Source: a virus. From it: a stretch of DNA of 38,065 nucleotides. The DNA is taken from the IMG/VR virus record IMGVR_UViG_3300015261_000010, positions 1 through 38,065 of that record, one strand, 5' to 3'. Below are positions 4,060 to 34,536 of this stretch, piece by piece (within the stretch, counting starts at the first letter, position 1; the number at the start of each line of letters is the position of its first letter). The notes beneath the pieces are model-generated. The model ran no database searches. It was not told the origin of the DNA and saw only the letters and a list, made by a program, of their open reading frames with translations. Made by a program: the position numbers and the translations under genes.

Positions 4060-4387
4060 TCCCGGCCTTCTGCATCCGTTCGATGATGGTCTGCGCCGCT
4101 CGCTCGGCGGCTGCCAGCTCGCCATCCAGCTCATCAATCACGTGGCCGGCATCAGGCGCCGGCTTCTGGCGGTTCATGATGCCGGCAATGTTCACGACCT
4201 TGAGCAACAGCGTCATGGTTGCGGCGGCGTTCTTTTTGCACCAGTACCTGTCGCCCCGTTCCTGCTGGGTCAGCTCGGTGGGCGTCTTCTCGGCCCCGGG
4301 CCAGTTGTGCGGATCAACCTCGGTGATGACTACCTCACCCAGGCGCTCGCTGAGCGCTTGCAGGCGCGTGATCTGATCGTCTCTCAT
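4049..4387 (-). CDS. Probable terminase small subunit
   Basis: A 112-residue protein directly before TerL, with its stop overlapping the terL start by 11 bp. The start chosen is ATG at 4387, which overlaps the TAA of the preceding gene (TAATG). It is largely helical, with a charged N-terminus, the segment HNWPGAEKTPTEL near 27-40, and a C-terminal amphipathic helix rich in Glu and Ala. I see no clear HTH motif. Position, size and coupling to terL fit the DNA-recognition subunit of terminase; sequence alone does not prove it. Confidence 0.65.
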   Translation of the reverse strand: MRDDQITRLQALSERLGEVVITEVDPHNWPGAEKTPTELTQQERGDRYWCKKNAAATMTLLLKVVNIAGIMNRQKPAPDAGHVIDELDGELAAAERAAQTIIERMQKAGNVH

Positions 4388-6927
4388 TATCTCGCTCCCA
4401 CAGCAGCACCAAGGTTTGGAGCCCGATCCGGCGCGGTGTCGCCCGGCTCCCACCAATACGATTGGTTGAACTCTTTTTTGGCCCGCTTCTTCATCCGGCG
4501 CAGATAACCCGGGCTGAAATATTCCTGAAGCTGGTTAAAGATCAGGTGGTCTGTGGCGGCCTTCGTGTACCAGAGGTTTGCGCCAGGCGTGTGGGACTTG
4601 GCGAACTTCACCAGGTTGCCGCCAACCTGCGGGCCTTTGCCGTCAGCGGCGTTGCCCTTCAGCTTGGAAAGCGCTTCGATGTCGCCGGCGATGGGCCCAC
4701 CGACTGCACCGATGAACGACTGTCCACCTTGGGACGTGTCCGAAAACAGGAAATCCCCGTACAGGCCGAGAGCGCCGCCCTTGAGGAACGAGGCGATTCC
4801 AAAGCGAAGACCAGGCACGCCCCACTTTTCGTCATCGGTGATGTCCTTCGGATCGCGCCCGGCCGCAATCTCGCCCAGTTGAATCGCCATGCCTCCCAGC
4901 ACCGTTGTGCTGGCGACCAGGGCACCGATATAGCCGGCCTTGCCCCAACCTTCCTGAGCCATGCCGCGCCGGGCGTGGCGCATCATCATCGCGATGGAAA
5001 AGCTTTTGAACTGCCAGAAGCTGCGCATCAGTTCGCCTTTCCAGGTCCCCCGTTCCACGCCGCCGTGCATGAGGGCCTTTTCCCTGGCCCCGGGCTCGAT
5101 GATTGCCATGTTCGTTTCGTCCAGCACCGTGCCCAGCAGCTTGGTGGCCGCCTGGTCCTTGAGCCGCTGCGGGGTCGTGTTGAGCTGCTGGGCCAGCGGC
5201 ACCAAATCAGCGTTCTTGATGCGGTAGATGCTGTTCGCGGTGAGCACCGTATCGCCGACGCCGCGCCAGTCCTCTGGCTGCGCCAGGCGCCACACGGCCC
5301 AATCGGTTTCGGTGACGCCCTGCCCGAGCAGGCGCTTGCTGTCTGCGGGGTCCATAGCGGCAATGGTCTGGTGCCGGCGGGACATGTCGCCCAGGGTATC
5401 CATCATCGTCGCGCCGAACGCCCGCTGAGTGCCGGCGGTCAACATGTTCAGGCCCGATGCCTGCATGACCTTGCTGGCGGCGGTCTGCGAAAACTTCGAT
5501 ATCCGCCCGGAAATTTCCTCGGTGGTGCCCAGGCCGTCGGCGCCCCAGCGATTAAGGCTGCCGATCAACTGATTCAGGCCCAGGCCTGCCCGCTGCGCCA
5601 GACGCCGGTCCGCCGCGCTGGCCGGGTTGAGCATGCGAACCTCGTTCGCAAACACCTTCATCACCGGCATTCCGTTCATGGATGCGGTCAGGCCCAGGGT
5701 TCCCTGGTCGGTGATGGACGTCAGCACGGCAGAGCCCAGGCGGCTGGCAACGTTCAAGGCCCGGTACGTCTCAAACCCGTTCGCAAGGGCTGCCGACGCC
5801 GGCGGCTCCCTGGTGCCGGCCACCTCTTCGAACAGGGACTCAATCCGGCGGCGCTGCCTGGCGGTCTTTTTTGTTTTCTTGGGATCAGCCGTATCCGTGG
5901 CCTTTTGCCCCTCATCAAGGAAGTAGCGCATCTGGTTGGACGGATTCGGGCCCAGGGCCTCTACCAGGGCGATATCACGGGATGCGCGGTCTATGTGACC
6001 GATAAGCAGCTCAAGCAGGTTGCGCTCGCCGTAGGCCTTCTGTGCAGCGATAAAGCTTTCGGCGTCCTTGTAGTGGATCTGCCGCGACTCGCTCCCACGG
6101 TTGGCGCGCATGCCGTTGCCGGCGGCGTTGCCGGGCTCCAGCTTGTTCGCGCCGCCGGTGGCCAGGGTCTGCCACGCGTGATTCAGAAAGTCGGTCAGCT
6201 CGGCATCGTTCATCGGCGTCCCGTCTTCGTTCATGTACTTCGCACGGTTGGCCCACTGGATATGGTCGCCAACCCACTTGGCCTGGTCCTTGGCGACCTT
6301 GATTTGCGAGTGGTCCCGAGGCATGGACCAATCATCGAGGAAACCAACATCGCCGCCGGCGCGGTTGAAGCGCTGGCGCAACTGTTCGGCAGTGTCCTTG
6401 AACGACTTTGCTGCGGCCTTGGCCGTGGCGCTGCCCGAGTCCTGGCCATGCAGCTCGCGCACCAGCGCCAGGTTTCCAGCCTCGTTCTGGAACAGGCCCA
6501 GGAACTTGCCCTTGGTCTGGTCGATCACGTCCAGCATGCGGCTGAGGGAGTCGTCACGAATGGCCCGGGTTGCCGACTCGATCGACTGAATCCCGCTCTT
6601 GCCGTCCGACGAGAACGCCAACAGCCGGTCGAGCCCTTCAAGGGGTTGCTCAGGAAAGCGCGCCATGTAGCTGGCCACGCGGTCGTGCGCAAGGATGGTC
6701 AGCGCCACGCGCTTTTTCTTGAGGTTGGCCTCATCTACCAGGTCCTTGGCGGATTTGGTCGCGGCCTCGTTGAGGCGGTCGGCGCTGGTCTTTGATTGCC
6801 AGGTGGGGTCGGTCTGCGCCAGTTGCCTCATGTTGCGGCGTACGCGGTTCTCGATGCCCTGGATTTCTGGTTGCGTGAGGGGGCGGCCAATGGCCTGGGT
6901 GACCGCCTTGATGCATTCGGGGCGCAT
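4387..6927 (-). CDS. Large internal virion/DNA ejection protein
   Basis: An 846-residue protein in the place of T7 gp16. In T7-like virions, gp14, gp15 and gp16 form the core ejected into the cell envelope to make a DNA channel. Residues 1 to about 400 are mostly helical and charged, with a Lys-rich stretch near 350-365. The C-terminal half has hydrophobic or amphipathic segments, for example the Gly/Ala-rich YIGALVASTTVLGGMAIQ near 675-695, suited to membrane contact. No lytic transglycosylase motif was recognised, unlike T7 gp16. ATG at 6927 has AGGAG upstream. Copy B of the late hairpin precedes the gene, so it opens the packaging block of the late region. Confidence 0.72.
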   Translation of the reverse strand: MRPECIKAVTQAIGRPLTQPEIQGIENRVRRNMRQLAQTDPTWQSKTSADRLNEAATKSAKDLVDEANLKKKRVALTILAHDRVASYMARFPEQPLEGLDRLLAFSSDGKSGIQSIESATRAIRDDSLSRMLDVIDQTKGKFLGLFQNEAGNLALVRELHGQDSGSATAKAAAKSFKDTAEQLRQRFNRAGGDVGFLDDWSMPRDHSQIKVAKDQAKWVGDHIQWANRAKYMNEDGTPMNDAELTDFLNHAWQTLATGGANKLEPGNAAGNGMRANRGSESRQIHYKDAESFIAAQKAYGERNLLELLIGHIDRASRDIALVEALGPNPSNQMRYFLDEGQKATDTADPKKTKKTARQRRRIESLFEEVAGTREPPASAALANGFETYRALNVASRLGSAVLTSITDQGTLGLTASMNGMPVMKVFANEVRMLNPASAADRRLAQRAGLGLNQLIGSLNRWGADGLGTTEEISGRISKFSQTAASKVMQASGLNMLTAGTQRAFGATMMDTLGDMSRRHQTIAAMDPADSKRLLGQGVTETDWAVWRLAQPEDWRGVGDTVLTANSIYRIKNADLVPLAQQLNTTPQRLKDQAATKLLGTVLDETNMAIIEPGAREKALMHGGVERGTWKGELMRSFWQFKSFSIAMMMRHARRGMAQEGWGKAGYIGALVASTTVLGGMAIQLGEIAAGRDPKDITDDEKWGVPGLRFGIASFLKGGALGLYGDFLFSDTSQGGQSFIGAVGGPIAGDIEALSKLKGNAADGKGPQVGGNLVKFAKSHTPGANLWYTKAATDHLIFNQLQEYFSPGYLRRMKKRAKKEFNQSYWWEPGDTAPDRAPNLGAAVGAR

Positions 6928-33506: not shown

Positions 33507-33515
33507 GGAGATCGC

Positions 33516-34523
33516 ATGAATGAGCTGGCTCTTTTCGCGGGCGCTGGTGGCGGAATACTTGGCGGCCACCTGCTTGGATGGCGAACCATTTGCGCCGTTG
33601 AGCGTGATGCCTACGCCGCACAAATTCTGGCGCAACGACAAAACGATGGAGCCATCCCAGCTTTCCCGATTTGGTCTGACGTGTGCAGTTTTGACGGAAG
33701 GCCATGGCGCGGCCTTGTTGACATCGTTTCGGGCGGCTTTCCCTGCCAAGACATTTCATCCGCCGGTACAGGCGAGGGAATCGGCGGGGCTCGATCGGGA
33801 CTATGGCGGCAAATGGCAAGAATTATTGGTGAGGTACGACCTCGATTCGTCTACGTGGAAAACTCACCAATGCTTGTGGGTCGAGGACTTGCCGTGGTCA
33901 TCGGTGACCTTGCCGAAATGGGGTATGGCGCACGATGGGGGGTTGTGGGAGCGGCAGACCTGGGAGCCCCTCACCAGCGCGACAGAATCTGGATTGTGGC
34001 CTACGCCCACGGTTCACGGGAACCACAACCGACCAGGGTCGAGCAAGAATGCAGGGTGGGGACTTTCGACAGCGGTGAAGCTGTGGACCACACCCAGCGC
34101 CAGCGACGGCAGACGGGGCGGAACAATCACCAGCAACATGACCGGCACCAGCCTTGCGCAACAGATCAGAACGCCGGAACGTTGGCCGACACCGACAGCG
34201 ACAGACAGCAAGCGCGGCGCCTCTCCCGCAGACAAACTTCGCAAATCGCCGGGGCTACCTGCTGCGGTGAAGATGTGGAGAACACCTCAGGCCAGCGACT
34301 CCAACAAGTGGAGCAACCAAAGCCTGGCGGAGCGTCAGGCCAAAGGGCAGCAGATTCGACTAAACACCCAGGTATCACCAGACGGTGGCCAGGGTGGCCA
34401 GTTGAACCCGGAATGGGTCGAGTGGCTGATGGGGTGGCCCATCGGGTGGACCGAATTAAAGCCCTTGGCAATGGACAGGTTCCGAGAGTGGCAGCAGCAG
34501 CATTCACCATCCTTTCTCAGTGA
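33516..34523 (+). CDS. C5 cytosine DNA methyltransferase
   Basis: A 335-residue enzyme that adds methyl to cytosine C5, with motif I LFAGAGGG (6-13), motif IV with catalytic Cys in GGFPCQD (Cys77), motif VI ENS (115-117), motif VIII QRDR (154-157) and motif X GNGQVP (318-323). All core motifs are intact, so it should be active and may guard phage DNA from host nucleases. The region between motifs VIII and X is rich in Arg and Gln and holds four repeats like LADTDSDRQQ. No restriction enzyme is next to it. The ribosome site GGAG lies 5 bp before this ATG. A second long frame covers the same DNA. Confidence 0.9.
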   Translation: MNELALFAGAGGGILGGHLLGWRTICAVERDAYAAQILAQRQNDGAIPAFPIWSDVCSFDGRPWRGLVDIVSGGFPCQDISSAGTGEGIGGARSGLWRQMARIIGEVRPRFVYVENSPMLVGRGLAVVIGDLAEMGYGARWGVVGAADLGAPHQRDRIWIVAYAHGSREPQPTRVEQECRVGTFDSGEAVDHTQRQRRQTGRNNHQQHDRHQPCATDQNAGTLADTDSDRQQARRLSRRQTSQIAGATCCGEDVENTSGQRLQQVEQPKPGGASGQRAADSTKHPGITRRWPGWPVEPGMGRVADGVAHRVDRIKALGNGQVPRVAAAAFTILSQ

Positions 34524-34536
34524 GCAATCAAAATGA
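33520..34536 (+). CDS. Overlapping +1-frame ORF, 338 codons, W-x-T-P repeat protein
   Basis: Starts 4 bp after the methyltransferase ATG, has no stop through the whole gene, and ends with ATGA on the start of the next gene, like most joins in this operon. The product begins MSWLFSRALVAEYLA and has four repeats near residues 159, 188, 221 and 252 (WPTPTVHG, WTTPSASD, WPTPTATD, WRTPQASD) and a Trp-rich end (WVEWLMGWPIGWTELKP). Ribosome site spacing (9 bp) is better than for the methyltransferase. I recall proteins of this style in other phages annotated as hypothetical, but cannot check. Translation is not proven. Confidence 0.6.
   Translation: MSWLFSRALVAEYLAATCLDGEPFAPLSVMPTPHKFWRNDKTMEPSQLSRFGLTCAVLTEGHGAALLTSFRAAFPAKTFHPPVQARESAGLDRDYGGKWQELLVRYDLDSSTWKTHQCLWVEDLPWSSVTLPKWGMAHDGGLWERQTWEPLTSATESGLWPTPTVHGNHNRPGSSKNAGWGLSTAVKLWTTPSASDGRRGGTITSNMTGTSLAQQIRTPERWPTPTATDSKRGASPADKLRKSPGLPAAVKMWRTPQASDSNKWSNQSLAERQAKGQQIRLNTQVSPDGGQGGQLNPEWVEWLMGWPIGWTELKPLAMDRFREWQQQHSPSFLSEQSK

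Follow-up and report, generated by a model that had tools for sequence, protein, structure and literature searches.

Overlapping reading frames at the locus

The window analysed in this study is a 38,065-nucleotide stretch of viral DNA (IMG/VR IMGVR_UViG_3300015261_000010, positions 1 to 38,065), and the neighbourhood of the locus is that of a temperate phage, with genes for an AAA/SMC-type ATPase, an exonuclease, an AlpA-type regulator, an integrase and a capsid protein. Two complete reading frames, here called alpha and beta, occupy nearly the same kilobase of the plus strand, with beta in the +1 frame of alpha (Table 1). Their ATGs lie 4 nt apart (ATGAATGAGC), and a single GGAG stands 5 nt upstream of the alpha ATG and 9 nt upstream of the beta ATG, in agreement with the initial annotation, which had proposed two full-length frames of 335 and 338 residues starting from one ribosome site. 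The same annotation correctly described beta as ending in ATGA on the next gene, the TGA of beta occupying positions 34534-34536 and the ATG of the next gene beginning at 34533, but it placed the alpha stop 11 bp before that of beta, whereas the ends of the two stop codons are actually 13 nt apart. The W-x-T-P repeats that it pointed out in the second product are real as well (WPTP160, WTTP189, WPTP222 and WRTP254).

Table 1. Positions of the two frames, their putative parts and their start and stop signals in the window
Feature	Position	Strand	Evidence or remark
alpha, putative C5-cytosine methyltransferase subunit, 335 aa	33516..34523	+	PF00145, phrog_363 and M.HhaI matches
beta, putative second subunit, +1 frame, 338 aa	33520..34536	+	phrog_1008 family
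GGAG, Shine-Dalgarno-like, common to both starts	33507..33510	+	sequence, consensus of relatives
ATGA, next gene's start overlapped by beta stop	34533..34536	+	sequence
alpha catalytic block, motifs I-VIII (FAGAGGG, GGFPCQ, ENSP, HQRDRIW)	33516..34004	+	alpha w 0.13-0.20, beta w 0.46-0.54
alpha middle region, neutral drift	34005..34442	+	alpha w 1.0-1.3, beta w 0.16-0.23
alpha motif X (RVDRIKALGNGQVPRVAAAAF)	34443..34505	+	alpha w 0.28
beta N-terminal half (MSWLFS..., STWKTHQ, TLPKWGM)	33520..33990	+	conserved; constraint weaker but real
beta W-x-T-P repeat region, at position of target-recognition domain	33991..34395	+	hhalign to residues 197-357 of single-chain gp71
beta LNPEWVEWLMGWPIGWT, presumed motif IX equivalent	34402..34452	+	nearly invariant

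Alpha matched PF00145 (E=4e-33, residues 4-190), phrog_363 (E=4.9e-62) and, by phmmer, M.HhaI, and its motifs FAGAGGG, GGFPCQ, ENSP, QRDRIW and ALGNGQVP are largely or nearly invariant in relatives. Motifs I, IV (PCQ), VI (ENV), VIII and X of PF00145 follow one another in order in alpha, and motif IX and the target-recognition domain seem to be missing from this chain. The initial annotation had suggested searching the 338-residue product against phage proteins, and beta indeed matched a phage family, phrog_1008 (E=5.7e-26), which was also matched by 111 of 111 members of the alignment of beta relatives (A1). Both PHROG families are labelled DNA methyltransferase and are kept as separate families, with no record that the two have their DNA in common. 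Searches of the PDB by sequence or profile found no relative of beta among solved structures, and comparison of the alpha profile with the beta profile found no relation between the two. The neighbouring genes that were checked yielded no match to a restriction enzyme.

Taken singly, this sequence gives suggestive evidence only. Synonymous-codon shuffles of alpha produced a mean of 3.0 stops in the +1 frame and left it stop-free in only 0.75% of cases, and GC3 of alpha is 0.56 versus 0.78-0.83 in five neighbouring genes; both tests are moderate, and the comparative evidence is decisive. Elsewhere in the window, a 777-codon open frame (4462-6795, plus strand) runs antisense to an 846-codon ORF on the minus strand (4387-6927) and is probably an artefact of GC-rich DNA.

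Conservation of the two frames

Relatives were found in IMG/VR on at least 598 contigs for beta and at least 564 for alpha, together with 79 further loci in bacterial genomes, and in the phage records both frames match the same DNA. Wherever both were matched, the +1 relation was kept (246 of 246 loci), and the offset between the starts was exactly 4 nt in 182 distinct loci. The first codon of beta in these 182 loci was ATG in 164 and GTG in 7 (171 together), that of alpha was ATG, GTG or TTG in 155 and TTA in 11, and in 15 loci without an alpha start codon at the usual place an alternative start in the alpha frame was found upstream, with the ATG or GTG of beta kept. The two frames have median lengths of 304 and 298 codons in the 182 loci, where the median number of stops in the third frame is 17. 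The consensus of the start region carries GGAGG at -13 to -9 of the beta ATG, and 129 of 171 loci had a Shine-Dalgarno-like match, usually 8-9 nt upstream of the beta start. The dual frame is also kept in AT-rich hosts, for example Acinetobacter.

Each full-overlap record examined has only one of the two proteins annotated. In phages SLP-22 (L250) and phPA-G (L003) beta is annotated and alpha omitted, and the reverse holds in the other full-overlap records examined. In the prophage of E. coli PCP07014 (L284:1500-2261), PGAP gives alpha as a pseudogene with an internal stop, and the beta frame has a stop of its own at nearly the same place; with separate stops in the two frames, both subunits are broken. 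More distant relatives, phage N15 gp58 (L251) and Salmonella phage SEN5 (L249), likewise have W-x-T-P repeats and LNP...WLMG in a long second frame, which stays open for about 243 codons (N15) or 283 codons (SEN5). Overlap of this kind may be much more widespread, with a nested rather than a full-length beta.

Selection on each frame

Substitutions in 40 independent pairs were classed by their effect on each frame, and the resulting w values, with bootstrap intervals, are based on uncorrected counts with few SS sites. Across motifs I-VIII, alpha is the more constrained frame, and between motifs VIII and X alpha evolves at a w of about 1.0-1.3 and beta becomes the constrained frame (Table 1); over the last 25 residues of alpha, containing motif X, the ratios are 0.28 for alpha and 0.52 for beta. 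The most variable codon position moves accordingly from the third position of alpha to its first, which is the third of beta, and back to the third of alpha, with abrupt changes close to alpha codon 165 and some 25 codons ahead of the alpha stop. The +2 frame, used as a control, gave ratios above 1. Thus constraint is relayed from alpha to beta and back to alpha, and the N-terminal half of beta is also constrained, more weakly.

The weaker signal in the N-terminal half of beta could reflect the constraints on alpha itself, and single-frame flanking genes from 17 pairs chosen likewise were therefore used as a control. NN/NS was 0.84 in the flanks and 0.35 in the N-terminal half of alpha, SN/SS 0.73 and 0.19, and fourfold-site divergence 0.262 and 0.089 (ratio 0.34, 0.23-0.47), figures to be read bearing in mind that mosaic flanks may differ in age. 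This control indicates that selection acts on beta from end to end. Judged from these comparisons, it is near certain that the locus is a real case of dual coding with both frames under selection. The initial annotation had offered true dual coding or a former gene overprinted by the other; beta-changing substitutions are suppressed relative to the flanking single-frame genes and both frames are kept in the 182 loci, and, since selection acts on both frames today, the second option is superfluous. Frequent +1 stops in homologues and an absence of extra constraint, which it had named as counting against dual coding, were not seen.

Fused, tandem and rearranged relatives

What the initial annotation missed is the identity of the second protein, which, as in-frame fusions in other phages indicate, is the other half of the enzyme to which alpha belongs. 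One such fusion is gp71 of Mycobacterium phage IrishSherpFalk, a single chain in which the alpha profile aligned at residues 19-158 (99.5%), residues 197-357 aligned with residues 159-315 of beta (97.8%, hhalign) and motif X comes next; gp71 matches phrog_363 and phrog_1008 together, and about 20 single-chain relatives were found in IMG/VR. Vash, Lemur, Samy and phiBT1 have the two parts as tandem genes with motif X on the second, and these actinophage versions overlap by only tens of bases. In three other loci (L219, L233 and L207) alpha ends after motif VIII and motif X has been gained by beta. Among 208 distinct loci, motif IX was assigned to beta in 188 and to alpha in 1. Motif X fell in alpha in 186 of them and in beta in 5, never in both, and 11 loci had motif IX in beta and motif X in neither frame, by the pattern used. 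The LNPEWVEWLMGWPIGWT segment of beta is what we take to be motif IX, by its position and by reference to the M.HhaI sequence rather than to a residue-level structural alignment.

Two of these relatives deserve separate mention. In phiBT1 (L247:1194-2244), gp9.1 is noted as possibly inactive. A beta-like protein that includes motif X is encoded further downstream in the +1 frame, where no gene is annotated, so gp9.1 and this protein may together form a functional split enzyme. At L086:1497-2276 the catalytic half and the C-terminal half of beta stand in one frame, apparently via an indel, which is possibly a step towards a single-chain enzyme or else a broken copy.

The beta alignment prepared for folding (A3) is A1 less two rows from annotated phage records. 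AlphaFold modelled beta alone with low confidence (pLDDT 58), and in a model of a single-chain relative the catalytic and C-terminal parts were confident and the repeat region (residues 165-302) fell below 50. Foldseek with the single-chain model returned C5 methyltransferases, and the length of the best alignments (about 163-186 columns) is consistent with a match to the catalytic domain. As the W-x-T-P repeats are unresolved in both models, a role in recognition is assigned to them by position only.

Discussion

In this study, we propose that this temperate-phage locus codes in two frames for what is likely a split C5-cytosine DNA methyltransferase made of two subunits. A single Shine-Dalgarno sequence would load ribosomes that initiate at one of two ATGs, that of alpha or that of beta 4 nt further on, and the same kilobase would thus be read in two frames. 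Alpha would provide AdoMet binding and catalysis through the domain with motifs I-VIII and, beyond a linker that drifts because beta dictates its codons, the closing motif X, and beta would provide motif IX and, in the place of the target-recognition domain, the W-x-T-P region, which may recognise DNA. The two chains would associate into one active heterodimeric enzyme, probably an orphan methylase with which the phage marks its DNA. We are somewhat inclined to go further and to suggest that the whole second subunit, including an N-terminal domain that arose by overprinting the DNA of the catalytic domain, is made from the gene of the first, and that this is a stable and widespread phage design in which the two halves are in every case inherited, transcribed and translated together.

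Three other explanations have been weighed. The catalytic half and the beta half are adjacent and in a +1 relation, single-chain fusions exist and the actinophage tandem versions overlap only slightly, all of which would suit a frameshift-fused enzyme, in which translation starts in alpha and shifts +1 into beta after motif VIII to give a one-chain product, the start of beta being incidental. However, the start codon and Shine-Dalgarno sequence of beta are conserved, including in the 15 loci that lack the usual alpha start codon, the N-terminal half of beta is constrained although it lies upstream of any shift site, and motif X of alpha is constrained in frame 0, where it is useless to a shifted product. 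Around alpha codons 136-189, no dip in divergence was seen that would mark a conserved shift element. For these reasons we consider a frameshift product unlikely. It might also be supposed that alpha is a complete methyltransferase, given that motifs I-VIII and X are all on its chain, and that beta is an unrelated overprinted protein with another role, for example in anti-restriction, its N-terminal half having no known relative among solved structures. This is very unlikely in our estimation, since the fused relatives identify the C-terminal half of beta as the part missing from alpha, motif X moves between the chains, and the region of alpha between motifs VIII and X evolves neutrally, which makes it an improbable place for a target-recognition domain and motif IX.

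A chance open frame beside an ordinary methyltransferase is conceivable in GC-rich DNA when this single gene is viewed alone, since a small fraction of codon shuffles have no stops and the window has other long ORFs that are probably non-coding, but it was rejected as practically negligible on the comparative data: the frame is conserved in the 182 loci, AT-rich hosts such as Acinetobacter included, the phase of divergence flips to the wobble position of beta in the C-terminal half, and the flanking-gene control shows the added constraint.

Two-chain C5 methyltransferases with separated motifs have precedents. M.EcoHK31I recognises YGGCCR and has a smaller chain of about 23 kDa, which is said, in work of Lee, Kam and Shaw from 1995, to be read in an alternative frame inside the gene of the larger; M.AquI recognises CYCGRG. 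The phage pair likewise has motif IX on the second chain and motifs I-VIII and X on the first, the second chain being read from the first gene in an overlapping frame. M.EcoHK31I has two polypeptides, the larger with motifs I-VIII and X and the smaller with motif IX alone, and its predicted target-recognition domain is on the larger chain (PMC3404938), so the likeness to the phage pair, drawn from this description of the motifs, extends to the motif distribution. However, in the phage the second frame spans the whole gene, starting 4 nt after the first and encoding 338 aa, the constraint places the putative recognition region on beta rather than on the larger chain, and the gene is a phage gene with no linked restriction enzyme seen. 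M.AquI is similarly one enzyme made from two chains and divided after motif VIII, but its smaller chain carries motif X together with motif IX (I-VIII / IX-X) and a distal variable region, and no large overlap is mentioned (PMC3404938); it is closer to the tandem actinophage versions than to the full-overlap gene. An out-of-frame HNH endonuclease, the ShiLan domain, has been described inside a mycobacteriophage methylase (PMC11855218), which resembles the present case in having a second frame within a phage methylase gene; however, that domain is a mobile element inserted in the gene, and its product is unrelated, whereas here the second frame appears to be the other half of the enzyme and spans the gene. 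Our literature search found no paper on full-length overlap in phage methylases, though one may exist elsewhere or in REBASE.

Long same-strand overlaps with both frames under selection are rare and often doubted. The overlap described here is about 1 kb long, nearly complete and present in hundreds of phage contigs, and it is functionally interpretable because the two frames putatively encode the two parts of a single enzyme. How one piece of DNA can accommodate two proteins is shown by the relayed constraint, each frame being demanding where the other is free. Annotation hides one of the subunits, since databases nearly always give only one of the two proteins, and for many orphan methylases of phages the recognition sequences may not be assignable without beta.
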